From Leptolyngbya sp. SIO1E4 (GTDB lineage Bacteria > Cyanobacteriota > Cyanobacteriia > Phormidesmidales > Phormidesmidaceae): a stretch of DNA of 64,000 nucleotides. Location of the stretch: positions 1,302,001 through 1,366,000 of the forward strand of contig JAAHFU020000001.1 of the NCBI GenBank assembly GCA_010672825.2, written 5' to 3'. The notes below the pieces were generated by a model that saw nothing but the letters and a program-made list of their open reading frames with translations, was not told the origin of the DNA and ran no database searches. Below, piece by piece: positions 9,371 to 23,964 of this stretch; the stretch's first letter is position 1, and each line of letters opens with the position of its first letter. Both the position numbers and the translations under genes were made by a program.

Positions 9371-12300
9371 TTAACTGCCGCTGATGCGAGCGATGTCGCG
9401 GGCGTTTTCTTCAAACGCTGCTGACAGCGCATCGTCACCGGTGAGGCCATCGGCGATCGCCTTCTGGATGTGTTGCAGCACCCGTTTATAATCGCGGGGC
9501 ATGACTTTCACAAATTTGGTTACGGTATTGTCCCAATGGGCGAGCACCTCTGCCCCTCGGCTGCTGTCGGTATAGGCGACATGGCGCTGAATCATGTCAT
9601 GCAGCTCACGGATTTCTTCCGGATCGTCCAGGGTCTCAAGATCCACCATGTCGGTGTTGCAGCGGCTAGAGAAGTCACCCCCTTCATCCAACACGTACGC
9701 AATACCACCACTCATGCCAGCGGCAAAGTTACGTCCGGTACTGCCCAGAATGACGGCTTTGCCGCCAGTCATGTATTCACAGGCATGATCGCCGACCCCT
9801 TCTACAACCGCTCTGACCCCAGAATTGCGGACGCAAAACCGTTCCCCGGCCAGACCGCGAATGTAGGCTTCCCCACTGGTCGCACCATAGAAAGCCACAT
9901 TCCCCGTGATGATGTTCTCTTCAGGAACAAAGGTGGACTGCTTGGGCGGATAGAGAATAATCTTGCCGCCGCTCAACCCTTTACCGAAGTAGTCGTTTGC
10001 ATCCCCTTCGAGCTCTAAGGTCACCCCTTTGGGAACGAAAGCGCCAAAGCTTTGTCCGGCACTGCCCTGGAAGTGAAGATGCACGGTATCTTCTGGCAGC
10101 CCTTCCCAATGACGCTGGGTAATTTCGTTACCGAGGATAGTCCCAACGACTCGGTTGGTATTTCGAATGGGTAGAGTAGCCGCGACCTTGTCACCGCGCT
10201 CAATGGCTGGCTGACACAAATCCAGCAGCGTCGTCATGTCTAGGGACTTCTCAAGACCATGATCTTGGGAAATTTGACAGTAGCGCCCCACCTCCGGCTC
10301 CACCTCTGGCTGGTGGAGGATGGGGGATAGATCCAGCCCTTTTGCCTTCCAATGATCGATCGCCTGTTTCGGCTCTAAGACATCGGTACGGCCCACCATT
10401 TCATCCAGGGTGCGGAACCCTAGCTGGGCCATCCATTCACGAATCTCCTGGGCGATAAAGCGCATGTAATTGACCACATGATCAGGGTCGCCCATGAAAT
10501 GCTTCCGCAGGTCTGGATTTTGAGTCGCCACGCCGACTGGGCAGGTGTTCATGTGGCAAACCCGCATCATGATGCAGCCCAGACTCACCAAAGGCGCAGT
10601 GGAAAAGCCGAATTCCTCCGCCCCCAGCAGCGCAGCGATGACCACATCTCGCCCCGTTTTCATTTGCCCGTCTGTTTCGACCACCACTCGGCTGCGCAGG
10701 TTGTTCATCACCAGCGTCTGGTGCGTTTCGGCTAAGCCCAGTTCCCAGGGCAGCCCGGCATGTTTGATAGAGGTTTGAGGAGAGGCCCCAGTGCCACCGT
10801 CAAAGCCAGAAATCAGAATCACATCGGCATGGGCCTTCGCCACCCCAGCAGCAATCGTTCCCACACCCACTTCCGACACCAGCTTGACGTTAATTCGCGC
10901 TTGCCGGTTGGCGTTCTTTAAGTCGTGGATTAGCTCTGCGAGATCTTCAATGGAGTAGATGTCATGGTGAGGCGGGGGCGAAATCAGCCCCACACCTGGC
11001 GTCGAGTGGCGTACTTTAGCAATCCAAGGGTAAACTTTGCGCCCTGGCAATTGCCCCCCTTCGCCGGGTTTTGCCCCCTGCGCCATCTTGATTTGGATTT
11101 CCTTGGCCTGGGACAGATACAGGCTGGTGACGCCGAAGCGCCCTGAGGCGACCTGTTTGATGGCGCTATTCTTAGAGTCACCTTTCTCGTTCGTCCAGGT
11201 ATAGCGCTCTGGATCTTCACCACCCTCACCCGTGTTGGACTTACCGCCGATGCGATTCATGGCGATCGCAAGCGCTTCATGGGCTTCCTTCGAGATCGAG
11301 CCGTAGCTCATCGCCCCTGTTTTGAAGCGGCGAGTGATAGCCTCAATGGGCTCCACCTCCTCCAGAGGAACAGGGTCCCGGACTTTGAACTGAAGCAAGT
11401 CACGCAGGCGGAAGCGTTGTTTCTCCTGTTCATTCACCAGTGCCGCATAGCGCTTGTAGCTCTCATAATCCCCAGTGCGCACGGCTTTTTGCAGAGTATG
11501 AATCACCTCCGGGCTCAAGAGGTGGGCCTCACCGTCTTTGCGCCACTGGTAGTCGCCGCCGACATCTAGGGTGACTTGCTCTGTGGGGCGATCGGGGAAC
11601 GCATGGCGGTGTCGCTGAATCGCTTCTTCTGCCAGGACATCTAGCCCTACCCCCTGAATGCGGGACGCCGTCCAGGTGAAATATTTATCAATCACCGCTT
11701 GATTTAAGCCCAGGGCTTCAAAAATCTGCGCACCGCGATAGCTCTGGATCGTGGAGATGCCAATCTTAGAGGCAATCTTGATCACCCCCTTAACCACCGC
11801 TTTCACATAATTCTTGTGGGCTTTTTCGACCGAGATATCAGGCATCAGGCGATCTCGAATCATCCCCTCAAAGGTTTCAAAGGCCAGATAGGGGTTGATG
11901 GCCCCACAGCCATAGCCGATGAGCACTGCAAAATGATGCACCTCACGGGGTTCGCCTGACTCCAGCACAATGCCTACGCGGGTGCGGGTGCCCTGATGAA
12001 TCAGGTGATGGTGCAGTCCAGACACAGCCAGCAGCGCCGGAATGGCTGCGTGATCCTGATCGACGCCTCGATCCGACAAGATTATCAAGCTGTTCCCTGC
12101 CGCGATCGCCGCATCTGCCGCCTGAAAAATGCCATCTAGGGACGCCTCCAGCCCCGCAGGGCCGGTTTGAGGATTAAACAAAATCGGCAGCGTTACCGAC
12201 GGAAACGCTTTCGCGTGCTTCAGCTTTGCTAACTCAGCGTTGCTGATAATCGGCATCTTGAGGTCAATGAGATGGCAGCTTTCTGGCTCTGGCTTCAGCA

Positions 12301-13960
12301 GATTATGTTCACTGCCAATGGTGGTCTCCGCCGAGGTAATGATGGCCTCGCGAATAGAGTCAATGGGTGGATTCGTAACCTGGGCAAACAGCTGATGGAA
12401 ATAGTCATACAGCAGTCGAGGGCGATTAGACAACACCGGCAGCGGCGTATCAGTTCCCATCGCTCCGACCGCCTCTACCCCGTTTTGAGCCATCGGCTTC
12501 AGCAGCATTCGCAGCTCCTCAAAGGTGTAGCCGAATGCCTTTTGACGAATAGACAGGGGCGAGGCAGGTTCTTCCCCTAAAACGGGATCCGCCGGGGTGG
12601 GTAAATCAGCCAAATCCACCCGATAGCGGTTCAGCCACTCTCGATAGGGGTGTGCAGCGGCAATCTGCTGCTTAATTTCCTCATCGGCGACAATGCGACC
12701 TGCTTCCATATTCACCAGAAACATGCGCCCCGGCTCCAGCCGTCCTTTATAGGCAACCTGCTCTGGCTCAATGGGCAGCACGCCTGCTTCAGAGGCCATG
12801 ATCACCCGGTCGTCTTTAGTGACGGTGTAGCGCGAGGGGCGTAATCCATTGCGATCTAGCACTGCCCCCATCATGGTGCCGTCAGTAAACGCAATAGAGG
12901 CAGGGCCATCCCAGGGCTCCATCAGGCAGGCATGATATTCGTAAAAAGCTTTCTTCTCATCGCTCATGGATTCATGAGCTGCCCACGGTTCTGGAATCAT
13001 CATCATGACGGCATGGGGCAGGGAACGACCCGCCAGGGTCATCAGCTCCAGCGTGTTGTCAAAAATGCCGGAATCGCTCCCGTCCTTATTAATGAGCGGC
13101 TGGGCCCGCTGCAAGTCATCACCAAAGAGATCTGACTCAAACATCGATTGCCGGGCATACATCCAGTTAATGTTGCCGCGCAGGGTGTTAATTTCGCCGT
13201 TGTGGGCCACGTAGCGATAGGGGTGCGATCGCTCCCAACTGGGGAAGGTATTGGTGCTGAAGCGAGAATGCACCAGGGCCAGCGCGCTTTCTAGGTCAGG
13301 ATCGGCTAAATCTGGGAAGTATAGGCCCACCTGCTCCGGCGTCAACATGCCTTTATAGACAAGCGTGCGACAGGATAGGCTCGTGGCGTACCAATAGGGA
13401 TCTACACCTGTGGGGCGAATGGCAGAGTGCGATCGCTTGCGGATAACGTAAAGCTTGCGCTCAAAGGCCAGTTCATCCACCAGATCCGCAGAGCGCTGAA
13501 TGAATGCCTGCTGCATTACAGGTTCACTGGCCTTTGCCGTTGCCCCTAAAGAAGCATCATCAGTGGGCACATCCCGCCAACCAAGCACCTGCTGCCCTTC
13601 TGCAGCCACAATGTCTTCAAAAATCCGGTGGCTGTTCTCTCGTTCTACCGGGTCAGGGGAAACAAAGAAAAATCCTACGCCGTAGTGCCCAGGCTGGGGG
13701 AGCGTGATACCCTCGGCGGCGGCCACCTTTGCCAAAAACTTGTGGGGCAGCTGCATTAAAATACCCGCACCGTCGCCCGTGTTCGCTTCAGCACCCACCG
13801 CACCCCGGTGAGCCAAATTCGACAGAATAGTGAGCCCTTGCTCCACAATCTCATGAGACTGGACTCCTTTCATATGGACGATGAAGCCAACACCGCAAGC
13901 ATCGTGCTCAAGTTGGGGGTCATAGAGTCCCTGCTTTGGGGGCGAAAACGTATGAGTCAT
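9371..13960 (-). CDS. gltB: Glutamate synthase large subunit GltB
   Basis: 1529 residues. GltB makes two glutamates from glutamine and 2-oxoglutarate (GOGAT). Domain order: class II glutaminase from the catalytic cysteine in HDACGVGF (about residue 22) to about 430; a central domain; an FMN-binding synthase domain (about 800-1190) with [28 protein letters not shown] and the 3Fe-4S cysteines in [15 protein letters not shown]; and a C-terminal beta-helix rich in G-x-x-G ([17 protein letters not shown]). The adjacent gltD indicates the NAD(P)H-dependent enzyme rather than the ferredoxin-dependent GltS form. No perfect GTA-N8-TAC NtcA palindrome was found in the 400 bp upstream. Confidence 0.96.
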
Positions 13961-18291: not shown

Positions 18292-19296
18292 TCAGATGTC
18301 CTCTAGCCAGGAGGCGGCGATCATGGGGACGATGGTTTCGTCCTGAAATTCTGATCCTGACGTTTCGTCAAACTCTACGACTGAAGATTCATCTGAAGAT
18401 TCAGCAGCAGAAGCTGACGAATCTTCACCCTGCTGCATTGCCCACGGGTTCTTTAGTATGCGATCGACCGTGTCCGCCAGCAGGGGCCTGCCTAAATCAG
18501 CGTATGCTTGGCTCCAGAGGGGGGCGTACTGATTAAAGTTATCCACATCATATTGCTGCCAATAGCTTTCTCGAATGATGGCCAGGGCCGTTGCTGGATA
18601 CCCTTGCTCTAAAGCAATTTCGGCCTTTCTGAGGATGGTTTGTAGGTCGCTCTCTACAGCCTGGATTTCATAATCACAGGCTGAATCAGCCTCATGGTTT
18701 GGCGAAAAGGTATGAGCTGGCGCGAGAACCCCGACCCCATCTGACGTCGGCTCGTAGCGCCAACCATCAGGGATAGCAGGGATCACGGCTCTGCGGTTTT
18801 GGTACCAGTCCGCTTTTTGAGCGGTGGGATGCAGATCTAACATGAATGCCAATTCATGATGTTTGTGGAGCGCCGTCGCATATTCAGCCCCCACAATTAA
18901 CGAGAGCAACCCTTCTAGCCCTGACCGGGTATCTGGCCCAACCAGGTTGAGCCCGAAATCATTCATCGGCTCAAATTCAACAATGGGATAGTCTGATTGC
19001 TTGAGTTCTGGGGCATGGATCAGATAACCGTAGTGCTCTCCGTCAGTGCCGGACCAGCCGAACGAAAACATTTCTATCGGGGTCCATGGATGCCTGGCAA
19101 ACAAATCATGCCCCGCCTGCCCGTTACTGAAAAGATGCAGCGCGGGGGTTAATTCCCAACCAAGATAGTCAAACGGGTCGTGGTATCCCTCTTCCATAAA
19201 CGTTAGGACGATACGAGTGACTTCGGCAAACAGCCGGGGCACGGGAAAACCATAGGTCTCTGTTAACCACGCTTGGATTTCGGTAATGAATCGCAT
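18292..19296 (-). CDS. SMI1/KNR4 (SUKH)-like protein with acidic tail
   Basis: 334 residues. The first 140 contain FGWSGTDGEHYGYLIHAPEL, then DYPIVEFEPM and GLEGLLSLIVG, a pattern I associate with SUKH-superfamily domains; this call is tentative. The middle is helical (EQGYPATALAIIRESYWQQY), TPR-like in character. The last 50 residues are very acidic and serine-rich (SSASAAESSDESSVVEFDE). SUKH proteins often act as immunity or protein-binding modules, but no toxin gene lies next to it. It stands alone, convergent with the hypothetical gene upstream on the map. Confidence 0.5.
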   Translation of the reverse strand: MRFITEIQAWLTETYGFPVPRLFAEVTRIVLTFMEEGYHDPFDYLGWELTPALHLFSNGQAGHDLFARHPWTPIEMFSFGWSGTDGEHYGYLIHAPELKQSDYPIVEFEPMNDFGLNLVGPDTRSGLEGLLSLIVGAEYATALHKHHELAFMLDLHPTAQKADWYQNRRAVIPAIPDGWRYEPTSDGVGVLAPAHTFSPNHEADSACDYEIQAVESDLQTILRKAEIALEQGYPATALAIIRESYWQQYDVDNFNQYAPLWSQAYADLGRPLLADTVDRILKNPWAMQQGEDSSASAAESSDESSVVEFDETSGSEFQDETIVPMIAASWLEDI

Positions 19297-19708
19297 TACA
19301 CCTCATTCCACCAGCTTTTTAGAGAATTTTTATAGCGTATGCCACTCGGGGAAGCAAGAACCGCCTGAAGTGAGGTAGCTCTGCCAGTCAGGTGACGAGT
19401 ACCAGCAAGGGCGAGTATTTAGCGAGGAGGGCGCGCCGTGCCCCCAGAGATTTTCTACATTTCAAAATGGAGCACACGACACGGAATACAGCAGCGCCAA
19501 CGCACCTTCAACATACCTGGGCGATGGCCTTTATAAAGCCCCAGACTCACGCTTCAATGCCTCTCCAGCAAGCGGTTACAGCATTTAACCTCGGATCCGG
19601 TATCCTAGGCGCTTTCAGGTCATTGCAGAATTGGATTGCAATCTCAGCTACAGTTTAGAAGGTATACCGCACGGTAAGTTCGGAGTTTCATTGACAAGGG
19701 TCTCTACG
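19297..19708. other. Divergent promoter region upstream of the URC cluster
   Basis: About 410 bp between the SUKH-like gene and the URC1-like gene. An 88-codon frame at 19392-19658 has no protein-like features. No clear regulator site or RNA was recognised. Confidence 0.45.
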
Positions 19709-20974
19709 ATGACATCGGTCAATCCCCCTCGGCATAAGCATATTGTTCTCACCTCCCATCCAGGGCACTTTGGCCCTAAGCCACTCCCGGTTGAATGGGG
19801 GCACCCTGACCCCATTCAGCGGGGACCTGTGGTTGCAACCTTGGGCAATCGATCCCACCGCAATGCGATTGGGACCCATTCGGGTGCCTACGCCGTTTAC
19901 CGGGCATTGGCTGTTGCTAGCGGAGACCTAGAGCGCGACCATCGTGCCGATTTAACGAACACAGCTCCGACCGTCTCCATTGGCCCTCACCCCAGTTGGG
20001 CTGACCCCAACAAAATTGTCTCCCTCGATCCCTTTGGGGCACTGGACAACGACTTATTTGCTGATTTGCGCGCGGATGGGTACGACATTCGCCCTTCTAT
20101 TGCCATCACGAAAGCCCACATCAATATCCCAGAACTCCAGGACGCCGTAACGAAAGGGCGCCTCCGAGCCGATGGCAAGATTTTGAAAGCAGGGGGAGAG
20201 CTGGTGGTGACGAAGGCCGCGATCGAACCCGTTTGGTATCTGCCAGGAATTGCACAGCGCTTTGGCGTCAACGAGAGTGACCTGCGCCGTACGTTATTTG
20301 AGCAGACGGGGGGGATGTTTCCCGAGCTGGTCACGAGATCGGATCTCGAAGTCTTTTTGCCCCCCATTGGCGGACACACCGTCTACATTGTGGGAGATGT
20401 GGCAGCGATTACTGATCCTAATCGCCCCTTGGCCGTACGTATCCATGACGAGTGCAACGGGTCTGATGTCTTTGGCTCAGACATTTGTACCTGCCGCCCT
20501 TACCTGGTTCACGGTATTGAGGTGGCAGTGACCACGGCGCAAGCCGGGGGCGTTGGCGTTATTATCTACGCCCGTAAGGAAGGGCGCGCCCTGGGAGAAG
20601 TCACAAAGTTTTTGGTATATAACGCCCGTAAGCGTCAGGAAGGAGGCGATCGCGCCGATGCCTACTTCACCCGCACCGAGTGCGTGGCTGGGGTGCAAGA
20701 TATGCGCTTCCAGGAGCTGATGCCCGACGTGATGCACTGGCTAGGCATCAGCCGTATCAACCAGTTTGTGTCGATGAGCAACTTGAAATACGATGCCATC
20801 ACCCAGTCAGGCATTGAAGTGGTGGAGCGTATTTCGATTCCAGAAGAGCTGATTCCGGCGGATGCACAGGTCGAAATTGATGCCAAGAAAGCGGCAGGCT
20901 ACTACACCGAGGGCGACGTTCCCGATGATGAGGCCCTGGCACAGACCTTAGGTCGGCAATACGAGGAGTCATGA
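19709..20974 (+). CDS. GTP cyclohydrolase II-like protein, URC1 type
   Basis: 421 residues from ATG 19709. The second half is a GTP cyclohydrolase II domain with the zinc motif intact (ECNGSDVFGSDICTC) and the downstream GGVGVIIYARKEGRALGEV. The first 190 residues are not the RibB domain of bifunctional riboflavin enzymes; they contain RGPVVATLGNRSHRNAIGTHSG and match the URC1 group. URC1 is required for uracil catabolism in some yeasts and is linked in bacteria to URC4 and UPRT genes; the exact reaction was not settled as far as I know. Its stop overlaps the URC4 start by ATGA, so the two are translationally coupled. Confidence 0.88.
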   Translation: MTSVNPPRHKHIVLTSHPGHFGPKPLPVEWGHPDPIQRGPVVATLGNRSHRNAIGTHSGAYAVYRALAVASGDLERDHRADLTNTAPTVSIGPHPSWADPNKIVSLDPFGALDNDLFADLRADGYDIRPSIAITKAHINIPELQDAVTKGRLRADGKILKAGGELVVTKAAIEPVWYLPGIAQRFGVNESDLRRTLFEQTGGMFPELVTRSDLEVFLPPIGGHTVYIVGDVAAITDPNRPLAVRIHDECNGSDVFGSDICTCRPYLVHGIEVAVTTAQAGGVGVIIYARKEGRALGEVTKFLVYNARKRQEGGDRADAYFTRTECVAGVQDMRFQELMPDVMHWLGISRINQFVSMSNLKYDAITQSGIEVVERISIPEELIPADAQVEIDAKKAAGYYTEGDVPDDEALAQTLGRQYEES

Positions 20975-22206
20975 TGGTGCCGGAAGAACAGGCGGTGATC
21001 GCCTATTTGCTTCAGCCCCAGGCCATTCGCGATCGCTGCCAGCAGCTGTTTGATCTGTCTCAGGCAGATCAGCTAGAACATTTTGCCTGCGATCTGTCCC
21101 AATTAGAGGCGGTGGCCACCTATGTGGTGAAAACCACTCAGCAGCTCTATCCAGATTTTCAGGTACCCTTTCACAGCCGCTGGCGACATTTTGATGTGGG
21201 AGGGGTGTCTCGTCTGGCCCAGCTCAACCAGGCGCTACAGGGTGAATCTGTGGCAGCGGCGGCTCGATCACGACTCGATTTAGCGATTGTGAGTGTCTTG
21301 CTGGATGCCGGGGCTGGGAGTCAGTGGCGCTACTACGATACCGCCGCCGAGCAGGTGTTGGGGCGCTCTGAAGGGTTAGCGGTGGCCAGCCTGCATGCAT
21401 TTCAGCATGGTCTGTTTTCTTCGGATCCAGACTCCCCTTATCAGGTGGATGCAGCGGGGCTGCAGCAGTTGACGGAAGCCGATCTCGCACAAGCATTTCA
21501 GGTCAGAGAAGATAACCCCCTCGTGGGGTTGTCGGGGCGCTTGGCCCTGCTGCATCAGTTAGGGGCTGCCTTGGTGGCTCAACCGGCGCGATTTGGTAAA
21601 AACCCAGCCCGACCCGGCCATCTGCTGGACTACTGGCAAGGGAAATTTGCCACAACGCTGGATGCAGGCAAGCTGTTGACGGAAGTGCTAGAAAGCTTTG
21701 GTTCCATCTGGCCAGGCCGTGTGGCGATCGCCCATACGAACCTGGGGGATGTCTGGCCCCATCCAGCACTGCCTGATCATGCTTTGGGTGCGAATTTAGT
21801 ACCTTTTCATAAGCTGTCTCAGTGGCTGACATACTCCTTGGTGGAGCCCTTGACAACGGCGGGGATAACTGTCACAAACCTCAATGCTTTAACAGGGCTG
21901 GCAGAATATCGCAACGGTGGATTGTGTGTGGATTTAGGGTTGCTGGTGCCTAAACATCCGGAGGTGATCACCACGGCGCACTTACCCAGTTCACCGGTCA
22001 TTGTGGAATGGCGAGCCCTCACGATCGTGCTGTTGGATTTAATTGGCGATCGTGTCCGTCAACTCCTCCATAAAAGTCCTGAGGAATTACCCCTGCTCAA
22101 AGTGCTGGAAGGGGGAACCTGGGCAGCGGGGCGACGCATTGCGAAGCAGCTACGGCCTACCGGCGCCCCCCCGATTACGCTTCACAGCGATGGAACTGTG
22201 TTCTAA
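20971..22206 (+). CDS. URC4/DUF1688 family protein
   Basis: 411 residues starting at ATG 20971 inside the stop of the URC1-like gene. Soluble and alpha-rich. Family-like stretches are FHSRWRHFDVGG, GAGSQWRYYDTAAEQVLGRSEG, NPARPGHLLDYW, DVWPHPALP, LTYSLVEPL and the C-terminal GGTWAAGRRIA. DUF1688/URC4 proteins are needed for uracil use as nitrogen source in yeasts with the URC pathway, with URC1 and uracil phosphoribosyltransferase. The biochemical role is not firmly known. Position and coupling strongly support a shared pathway. Confidence 0.88.
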   Translation: MMVPEEQAVIAYLLQPQAIRDRCQQLFDLSQADQLEHFACDLSQLEAVATYVVKTTQQLYPDFQVPFHSRWRHFDVGGVSRLAQLNQALQGESVAAAARSRLDLAIVSVLLDAGAGSQWRYYDTAAEQVLGRSEGLAVASLHAFQHGLFSSDPDSPYQVDAAGLQQLTEADLAQAFQVREDNPLVGLSGRLALLHQLGAALVAQPARFGKNPARPGHLLDYWQGKFATTLDAGKLLTEVLESFGSIWPGRVAIAHTNLGDVWPHPALPDHALGANLVPFHKLSQWLTYSLVEPLTTAGITVTNLNALTGLAEYRNGGLCVDLGLLVPKHPEVITTAHLPSSPVIVEWRALTIVLLDLIGDRVRQLLHKSPEELPLLKVLEGGTWAAGRRIAKQLRPTGAPPITLHSDGTVF

Positions 22207-22324
22207 ACTCAGCGTTCCTTCATTGAACCGCTTGAAAACCCCTGAGCAGCTGGTAGAGACGACAAGTCTGCAGTCTTTGCCCCATGTCTCACCCTAAGGA
22301 CTGTAAAAACGTGTGAGGTTTCCG

Positions 22325-22957
22325 ATGAATACTCCGGTAACGCTTATTGATCACCCGTTGATTCAGCATAAGCTGACCATTATGAGGTGCAAAGACACCA
22401 GTACCGCTAAGTTTCGGCGACTTCTGGGGGAAATCAGCATGTTGCTGGCTTACGAAGTCACCCGCGATATGCCCTTGGAAAAGGTCCCCATCGAAACCCC
22501 CCTCACAACCATGGACGCGCCGATGCTGTCCGGAAAAAAGCTGGTGATTATTTCTATCATGCGGGCGGGGCAAGGCATCCTGGACGGCATGTTGCAGCTA
22601 ATGCCGTCAGTGCGGGTCGGGCATATTGGCCTCTATCGAGATCCCAAAACCCACGTGGCTGTGGAGTACTACTTTAAGGTACCGAAGGATGTCAACGAGC
22701 GGGAAATGCTCATTGTCGATCCTATGCTGGCCACGGGTAATTCCTCGGTAGCAGCGGTGCATCGTCTCAAAGAAACTCAGCCCCAGTCAATGAAGTTTGT
22801 GTGTCTGCTGGCAGCACCCGAAGGCATTGCCCACTTCCATGAAGAGCACCCAGACGTGCCGATTTTCACCGCCGCTATTGATGACAAGCTCGATGAACAC
22901 GGCTATATTTTGCCAGGATTAGGGGATGCTGGCGATCGCATGTTTGGCACCAAGTAG
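22325..22957 (+). CDS. upp: Uracil phosphoribosyltransferase
   Basis: 210 residues from ATG 22325; GTG 22313 is also in frame, but its bases GTGAGG serve better as Shine-Dalgarno. The enzyme makes UMP from uracil and PRPP. The PRPP-binding motif [13 protein letters not shown], the [12 protein letters not shown] segment and the C-terminal [13 protein letters not shown] are diagnostic. It lies 118 bp downstream of the URC4 gene, same strand. UPRT both salvages uracil and is the entry step of the URC catabolic route, so its presence here supports that reading. Confidence 0.95.
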
Positions 22958-23235: not shown

Positions 23236-23964
23236 TTAAGACCGCTGTTCTGAATAGGTCAACGCACGCCAGGCAAACTGCGGTAGCGCTAACATCCGTC
23301 GCCAGCGCCACGGCTCTTGGTACAGACGGTAAAGCCACTCCAGATGATTGTTCGCTAACCAGGCTGGGGCACGGTCCTTAATGCCAGCCCAGATATCGAA
23401 GCTACCCCCAACCCCAATCCAAATCGCATTGGGGCACAGCAATCGCTGCTCATTAATCCAAAACTCCTGTCTTGGCACCCCGAGGGCAACCAAAATGACC
23501 GTCGGCTTTAGGTGCGCTAAGCGCGCTTGCAAAGCAGGTTGCTCTTCAGGAGTAAGATAGCCATTCTGTATGCCCGCAATTTTTAGCTGGGGCTGACGGG
23601 TTTGCCAATTTTGGGCAGCTGTATCGGCGACCCCTGGGGCAGCCCCAAAAAAGAAAACAGAGTCGTCAGGGCCAAGCTTTTCGAGTAAAGATTCTGCTAG
23701 CTCAATGCCAGGAAAACGGGAAATGCGATGGCCTTTCAGCCTAAAGTAAAGCACAATACCGGCACCATCCGGAATGGCCAAATCAGCGTTGCAAAGCACG
23801 GCTTTGAGCGCAGGGTTCTGATCCGCCTGCATGGCCATTTCGGCATTTAAGGTGACCACATGGGCTCCCAAGCCTTGACGGTGACGCAAGAGTAGCCAAT
23901 CACTGTAGTGGGCTCTCCAATGGACAGGAAGCCCCATCACAGAGAGGGTTTTGAGGTCTCCCAT
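23236..23964 (-). CDS. WecG/TagA/CpsF family glycosyltransferase
   Basis: 242 residues, the usual size of GT26 enzymes, which add N-acetylmannosamine(uronate)-type sugars to lipid-linked intermediates for surface polysaccharide. Motifs: VTLNAEMAMQA and IPDGAGIVLYFRL in the N-terminal half, FFFGAAPGVA, then LGVPRQEFWI and IGVGGSFDIWAG. The C-terminal basic/aromatic stretch (LEWLYRLYQEPWRWRRM) is the membrane-associating end typical of the family. No other polysaccharide genes are next to it; the sugar specificity cannot be told. Confidence 0.93.
   Translation of the reverse strand: MGDLKTLSVMGLPVHWRAHYSDWLLLRHRQGLGAHVVTLNAEMAMQADQNPALKAVLCNADLAIPDGAGIVLYFRLKGHRISRFPGIELAESLLEKLGPDDSVFFFGAAPGVADTAAQNWQTRQPQLKIAGIQNGYLTPEEQPALQARLAHLKPTVILVALGVPRQEFWINEQRLLCPNAIWIGVGGSFDIWAGIKDRAPAWLANNHLEWLYRLYQEPWRWRRMLALPQFAWRALTYSEQRS

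Follow-up and report, generated by a model that had tools for sequence, protein, structure and literature searches.

The three-gene URC operon of Leptolyngbya sp. SIO1E4, which encodes URC1, URC4 and a uracil phosphoribosyltransferase (UPRT, gene upp), in our estimation (a probability of roughly 80%) degrades uracil by way of its nucleotide, with URC4 acting as a glycosidase of the Qng1 fold that frees urea. It lies in the window analysed here, a stretch of 64,000 nucleotides from contig JAAHFU020000001.1 (positions 1,302,001 to 1,366,000, forward strand). The operon itself is an ordinary case of a known pathway already annotated by NCBI, and it occurs in many bacteria, so that the set is not special to this cyanobacterium, in which an earlier note on this DNA had described it. 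What is new is the proposed assignment of URC4, a member of the DUF1688 family, to the Qng1 glycosidase fold, by which a vague step becomes a testable mechanism with a fold, residues, a substrate and products. In the available parts of the open-licence papers searched, no statement of a URC4 mechanism or of a Qng1-fold assignment was found.

Open reading frames, coordinates and family scores bear out the consecutive URC1, URC4/DUF1688 and UPRT genes of the earlier note, all in the same direction, and the ATGA overlap between the first two. The features of the locus are as follows.

19709..20974, plus strand: URC1, UTP cyclohydrolase by homology, with a GTP_CH_N and a GTP cyclohydrolase II-like domain (NF005536, PF12471/PF00925, identity to 7eev, tree)
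20453..20494, plus strand: zinc-binding motif C-x10-C-x-C of URC1, with C249, C260 and C262 numbered from 19709 (alignment)
20971..20974, plus strand: ATGA start/stop overlap coupling URC1 and URC4 (coordinates)
20971..22206, plus strand: URC4 (DUF1688), proposed 5-phosphoribosylurea N-glycosidase with a Qng1/helix-hairpin-helix (HhH) glycosylase fold (PF07958, predicted model, Foldseek, VIA, hhalign)
21811..21813, plus strand: Lys281 of URC4, aligned with Lys199 of Qng1 (invariant in 46/46 rows, profile alignment, title of the K199C mutant)
21904..21906, plus strand: Glu312 of URC4, aligned with Asp231 of Qng1 (Glu in 46/46 rows, title of the D231N mutant)
22313..22957, plus strand: upp, uracil phosphoribosyltransferase, operon copy (PF14681, TIGR01091)

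The link between URC4 and Qng1 came from a Pfam scan of 46 relatives, a fold search and a profile comparison. URC4 matches DUF1688 (PF07958) over its full length (profile positions 1–420 of 420, 507.9 bits, above the cut-off), and its AlphaFold2 model, built from 46 sequences, has a mean predicted local distance difference test score (pLDDT) of 93.5 and a predicted template-modelling score of 0.90. When the model was compared with the PDB by Foldseek, ranks 1–11 were all DUF2419/Qng1 structures (E 5e-10 to 6e-8, with target-normalised TM-scores of 0.73–0.78 against Qng1) and rank 12 had an E-value of 0.2. Structural alignment by VIA-align placed 7uk3 at Z 26.9 (309 residues, 2.9 Å, 19% identity) and human Qng1 at Z 26.7; the remaining 19 entries listed with Z above 5 were DNA glycosylases, except for 1xg7 (a 'conserved hypothetical protein'), the best being archaeal AGOG 8-oxoguanine DNA glycosylases at Z 11.0, and entries below Z 5 were mixed. 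Judged by its predicted fold, URC4 would be a Qng1-like glycosidase: the model shares the fold of the Qng1/Q_salvage/DUF2419 structures (7u07, 7u91, 7ulc, 7u5a, 7ugk) over about 309 residues, whereas archaeal AGOG and the other HhH DNA glycosylases share its general fold in a far weaker match (Z 5.7–11). HhH DNA glycosylases also act on DNA, while the substrate proposed for URC4 is a free nucleotide.

Sequence comparison supports this kinship independently of the fold. The Pfam family Q_salvage was matched by 29 of the 46 URC4 proteins at E-values up to 1 (best 1.6e-5); reciprocally, two of four Q_salvage proteins matched DUF1688 weakly (E 0.006 and 0.036), and the stretch matched in this direction spans the Lys and Asp aligned with K281 and E312 of URC4. 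A comparison of the URC4 and Q_salvage alignments by hhalign gave a probability of 88 (E 2.8e-6, 299 columns), as against 0.1 for URC1 as a control. A rerun of hhalign yielded 294 aligned pairs, of which 40 are near-invariant in both families; 16 of these 40 carry the identical residue, whereas circular shifts gave 1.6 on average and never more than 5. Among the shared invariants are K281 and Q284 ('HKLSQW' in URC4, 'KRAQIL' in Qng1), Y313 ('LAEYR' and 'FADYK') and E346, R348 and T351 ('VEWRALT' and 'ELRAAT'). The invariant residues common to both families comprise a K, a Q, a Y, an E-x-R and a W. The two Qng1 residues that were mutated in crystal structures, K199 (K199C) and D231 (D231N), align with K281 and E312 of URC4. 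K281 is invariant in 46/46 URC4 rows; position 312 is Glu in all 46 and Asp in 4/4 Q_salvage rows.

Differences from Qng1/Q_salvage are equally plain, as URC4 is 19% identical, falls below the Pfam cut-off, carries inserted segments and has Glu312 in place of Asp231. The genomic partners also differ, URC4 being found with URC1 and upp, and the Q_salvage genes of L089 and L091 beside a tgt-like gene. By its model URC4 would work like Qng1, yet we do not class it as a member of Q_salvage/Qng1, given the Glu at the Asp231 position. We think it likely that DUF1688/URC4 is a second branch of Qng1-type nucleotide glycosidases on the HhH DNA-glycosylase fold, one that would cut 5-phosphoribosylurea with a Lys/Glu pair instead of Lys/Asp. 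Q_salvage is itself rare in the phylum (5/386 genomes). In L089 and L091, which belong to other classes of the phylum, its gene lies directly upstream of the tgt-like gene, recognised by eye. The search of the Leptolyngbya genome found no Q_salvage, a weak negative as no control genome gave a signal either.

The proposed pathway would begin with UPRT, which would join uracil to phosphoribosyl pyrophosphate (PRPP) to give UMP, and housekeeping kinases would then provide UTP. URC1, acting as a UTP cyclohydrolase, would open the ring by two C–N hydrolyses (N1–C6 and N3–C4) and release three ring carbons as malonic semialdehyde, leaving a ribosylurea nucleotide. From the structure of the ring and the chemistry of GTP cyclohydrolase II, removal of C4-C5-C6 from UTP as malonic semialdehyde means that N1-C2-N3 stays on the ribose as ribosylurea. 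Were pyrophosphate lost as well, in the manner of GTP cyclohydrolase II, the remainder would be 5-phosphoribosylurea, and URC4 would hydrolyse its C1'–N bond by means of the invariant Lys281 and Glu312, giving urea and ribose 5-phosphate. The latter could return to PRPP for use by UPRT, urease would convert the urea to ammonia, and an MmsA-type dehydrogenase could turn malonic semialdehyde into acetyl-CoA. All of these reactions are inferred for this organism, as are the exact products of URC1, the parts played by K281 and E312 and the phosphorylation of the URC4 substrate at the 5' position. If the proposal is true, one fold would connect the catabolism of pyrimidines, the salvage of queuine and the excision of DNA bases, and the last step of uracil catabolism would be a kind of 'base excision' by which a nucleotide with an opened ring gives up urea; urea, which urease-bearing cyanobacteria can use, would be made inside the cell from uracil.

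Qng1 itself presumably hydrolyses queuosine 5'-monophosphate, and by analogy a Qng1-type glycosidase would be the right kind of enzyme for the step from ribosylurea to urea. The same analogy suggests that the substrate is phosphorylated, i.e. 5-phosphoribosylurea, because Qng1 structures with a 5'-monophosphate ligand exist (titles of 7u91 and 7ulc); an excerpt of PMC4425180 holds a suggestion on the hydrolysis of queuosine 5'-monophosphate by DUF2419/Qng1. Alternatively, the phosphates may be lost earlier, so that URC4 would be a glycosidase of the dephosphorylated nucleoside, cutting ribosylurea to urea and ribose. Ribosylurea is indeed named as the URC4 substrate in PMC7530994, and Qng1 structures with the nucleoside queuosine also exist according to their PDB titles. 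We nevertheless consider this unlikely, as structures of Qng1, the nearest relative by fold, include some with a 5'-monophosphate ligand, and no phosphatase was present among the neighbour representatives scanned, a part of all neighbours.

The pathway as proposed resembles that of yeasts. According to PMC7530994, 3-hydroxypropionate and ribosylurea arise in yeast by way of URC1 and URC6; URC4 then converts ribosylurea into urea, which is degraded by URC3/URC5, described as urea amidolyase. The roles given there for URC1, URC4 and URC6 of Lachancea kluyveri (L. kluyveri) match those of URC1, URC4 and UPRT here. In Schizosaccharomyces pombe, urg1 (GTP cyclohydrolase II-like), urg2 (UPRT-like) and urg3 (DUF1688) represent the same three families (PMC2174524). 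Unlike in yeast, the genes described here form a bacterial operon with a start/stop overlap and are complemented by a second, separate upp, and where yeast has urea amidolyase, urease is encoded in the Leptolyngbya genome and in 32/33 genomes with URC4.

For URC1, the model of its own NCBI family, NF005536, gives 754.3 bits (cut-off 403), and the protein also matches GTP_CH_N (PF12471, 285.6 bits) and GTP_cyclohydro2 (PF00925, 57.3 bits) above the cut-offs; the searches that the earlier note had called for thus returned the expected families for both URC1 and URC4. In a phmmer search of the PDB, 7eev and 7ej3 were found at E ~1e-190, and E. coli GTP cyclohydrolase II merely at 1.6e-10. URC1 is 68% identical to 7eev/7ej3 over 393–401 alignment columns, and no difference of kind was found between them. 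These entries, titled 'Structure of UTP cyclohydrolase' (7eev) and 'UTP cyclohydrolase' (7ej3), presumably stem from Zhang et al. 2021 ACS Catal, a paper cited in PMC12507026. The predicted model of URC1 was poor (pLDDT 60, 24 sequences), and its fold search was used solely to read these two titles. The zinc motif CNGSDVFGSDICTC is intact, as had been claimed, with all three cysteines (C249, C260 and C262) invariant in 24/24 aligned URC1 rows. With regard to the substrate, the expected ring opening of a uracil nucleotide is upheld, but UMP gives way to UTP in view of the titles of the closest solved homologues. For the same reason the chemistry of URC1 is more settled than the earlier note had it. 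In Pfam, URC4 is still of 'unknown function'.

The NCBI family is named 'GTP cyclohydrolase II', a name that also appears in plasmid annotations, and the cluster might on that account be taken for part of riboflavin synthesis or of another GTP-based pathway. This is extremely unlikely. URC1 reaches only 54.8 bits against the ribA model TIGR00505 (cut-off 205.85), and the genome carries a separate RibBA on contig G000:C3 (PF00925 245.5 bits, plus a DHBP synthase domain) that lies above the curated cut-offs of ribA (250.6 bits), ribB and the bifunctional model. In a tree of 24 URC1 rows and 7 cyanobacterial RibBA rows, the two groups stand on opposite sides of a long branch with 100/100 support, so that the grouping with RibA by which the earlier note would have been refuted was not seen. 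The 68%-identical solved homologue is titled UTP cyclohydrolase, and URC1 is linked to upp and URC4. URC1 is not RibA and, as judged by homology, is a UTP cyclohydrolase.

The grouping of the three genes recurs widely. We compared the best 80 of 572 related DUF1688 loci, the closest matches being cyanobacterial (Leptolyngbya sp. BC1307, 76%; a Phormidesmis priestleyi metagenome-assembled genome, 73%). URC1 was present in 70 of these 80 loci, UPRT in 65 and both in 59, several loci ending at contig ends; because of this recurrence, a grouping by chance can be excluded. Long frames in L012 and L078 hinted at a fusion of URC1 and URC4, which was rejected as they are two genes in different frames. 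Azospirillum brasilense has the gene order URC1-URC4-upp-BMP transporter-amidohydrolase, and in L068 a gene of the cytidine/dCMP deaminase family lies just 5' of URC1.

Among 386 genomes of the phylum, DUF1688 occurs in 33, and every one of the 30 with URC1 above the cut-off is part of this set. In the remaining three (G039, G334, G354) no URC1 is intact, and URC4 is matched only by fragments or by stretches interrupted by stops; G278, G320, G167 and G352 have URC1 fragments only and no DUF1688 match. Judged by their coordinates, the two genes are no more than 5 kb apart in 22 of the 30 genomes that have both URC1 above the cut-off and URC4. Five genomes (G116, G213, G215, G332, G360) have them on different contigs, where a contig break between neighbours is possible, and in three the genes are truly unlinked, being more than 1 Mb apart on one contig in G011 and G177 and deep inside two large contigs in G129. 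Joint retention and loss of the two genes, also where they are unlinked, points to a single pathway, although the genomes are not independent. Decaying URC genes, of which stop codons or fragments remain, were observed in G039 (L107), G334 (L108), G354 (L109) and G278 (L110), and URC1 and URC4 appear to have been lost together in these four.

The genes expected to process the products are also present. The Leptolyngbya genome encodes urease alpha (994.5 bits, G000:C2:926210-927907), and urease alpha is found above the cut-off in 32 of 33 genomes with URC4. The one without it, G338, carries a urea carboxylase (1872.6 bits), the sole one above the cut-off among eight URC genomes searched. For malonic semialdehyde, the genome has a methylmalonate-semialdehyde dehydrogenase (MMSDH) above the cut-off (556.6 bits). 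In four of the best 80 loci (L054, L059, L072 and L073, myxobacterial and deltaproteobacterial) the gene immediately upstream of URC1 encodes an aldehyde dehydrogenase; all three of those scanned by NCBIfam exceed the MMSDH cut-off, and the fourth is an Aldedh (Pfam scan only).

These genes bear on another reading of URC4, as a ureidohydrolase or amidohydrolase that cuts inside the urea group and yields ammonia, CO2 and ribosylamine but no free urea. Such an enzyme would likewise consume ribosylurea and yield nitrogen, and an amidohydrolase-family gene does lie near the URC genes in Azospirillum. It is very improbable, however, since the URC4 model has a glycosidase fold, since a urea carboxylase is present in the single URC4 genome of 33 that lacks urease, which is what the release of free urea would predict, and since yeast URC3/URC5 are described as urea amidolyase in PMC7530994.

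Several points weigh against URC4 as a Qng1-type glycosidase that frees urea. URC4 scores 14.2 bits against PF10343 (Q_salvage), below the gathering cut-off of 25; a phmmer search of the PDB with URC4 gave a chance match at E 0.5 alone and no Qng1, and a URC4 profile search of the PDB gave no match, so that Qng1 was not found there by sequence. The hhalign probability is 88 rather than 99, with few effective sequences, and the equivalence of residues comes from the profile alignment. The acid at the E312/D231 position is kept in kind, not in identity. The co-presence of urease with URC4 is weak evidence because urease is common anyway (above the cut-off in 90/116 sampled Cyanobacteriia, a sample that includes some URC genomes), and the genomes are not independent; MMSDH was above the cut-off in only 6/8 URC genomes.

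The sequence upstream of URC1 bears on what the degradation is for. We searched for exact matches to GTAN8TAC, the NtcA consensus, within 400 nt upstream of URC1. Such a box is present in 26/53 cyanobacterial loci, for the most part between −140 and −160, whereas Markov shuffles give 3.1 ± 1.8. By clade, 23/25 Nostocales loci and 3/28 others carry it (random-window means 2.8 and 1.5); the Nostocales were assigned from record titles and share ancestry, so that the 23 box-bearing loci are not independent cases. A stricter control, the 400 nt upstream of any frame of at least 200 amino acids in the same loci, gave 43/235 in Nostocales and 18/206 in the others. In the window itself, the 400 nt that precede URC1 contain no exact box. 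In many Nostocales the box-bearing gap is shared with a divergent gene (TPR in one scanned member), and the box may serve this TPR gene instead of URC1. A −10-like TAN3T lies at the right distance in 12/26 sites on the URC1 strand and 13/26 on the other (expected fraction 0.22), and as the two strands are so similar the data favour neither direction of the box. The box about 150 nt upstream of URC1 was seen in L011, L018, L022–L026, L028, L033, L034 and L036 and in other Nostocales.

The role in nitrogen recycling that the earlier note had offered is consistent with these data, its support being indirect (co-present urea-degrading enzymes and the box in Nostocales), whereas the box is missing from the window itself. 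A different purpose would be to limit pyrimidine nucleotide pools or to clear pyrimidine analogues, with nitrogen as a by-product. Entry at UTP rather than uracil, the second upp available for ordinary salvage and the lack of an exact box in the window would all fit. We think it quite unlikely that this is the main function, as a urea-degrading enzyme is present in 33/33 URC4 genomes and an NtcA-type box lies upstream in 23/25 Nostocales loci; moreover, Azospirillum has BMP-type ABC transporter genes next to its URC genes, and several of the best 80 loci have Bmp or ABC permease clusters nearby.

The transcription unit most likely comprises just URC1, URC4 and upp, because the genes on both flanks lie on the opposite strand. 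Of these, the gene at 18292-19296 (minus), divergent from URC1, encodes a 334-aa protein that matched nothing in Pfam or NCBIfam at E 0.1; the gene 3' of the operon (23236-23964, minus) encodes a WecG-type glycosyltransferase by Pfam/NCBIfam. Although the URC1 frame can be read from a TTG at 19631, translation probably starts at the ATG at 19709, as similarity to the family sets in only at residue 33–36 of the longer frame. The upp gene starts with GTG (22313), and its product exceeds the cut-offs of PF14681 (UPRTase, 251.3 bits) and TIGR01091 (273.3 bits). A second uracil phosphoribosyltransferase is encoded outside the operon (G000:C1:143808-144431, 229.3 bits), and given this copy the operon upp may be dedicated to catabolism. 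Scans for tRNA genes, Rfam families and promoters gave nothing useful. About 5.7 kb from the operon, at 9371-13960 (minus), lies a gene for glutamate synthase (four GOGAT domains), a nitrogen-assimilation enzyme. In five of the best 80 loci (among them L067, L008, L029 and L043) a gene belonging to one and the same cluster follows the URC genes, and the one member scanned, L067:9965-10450, matches ureidoglycolate lyase, possibly another urea-producing step.

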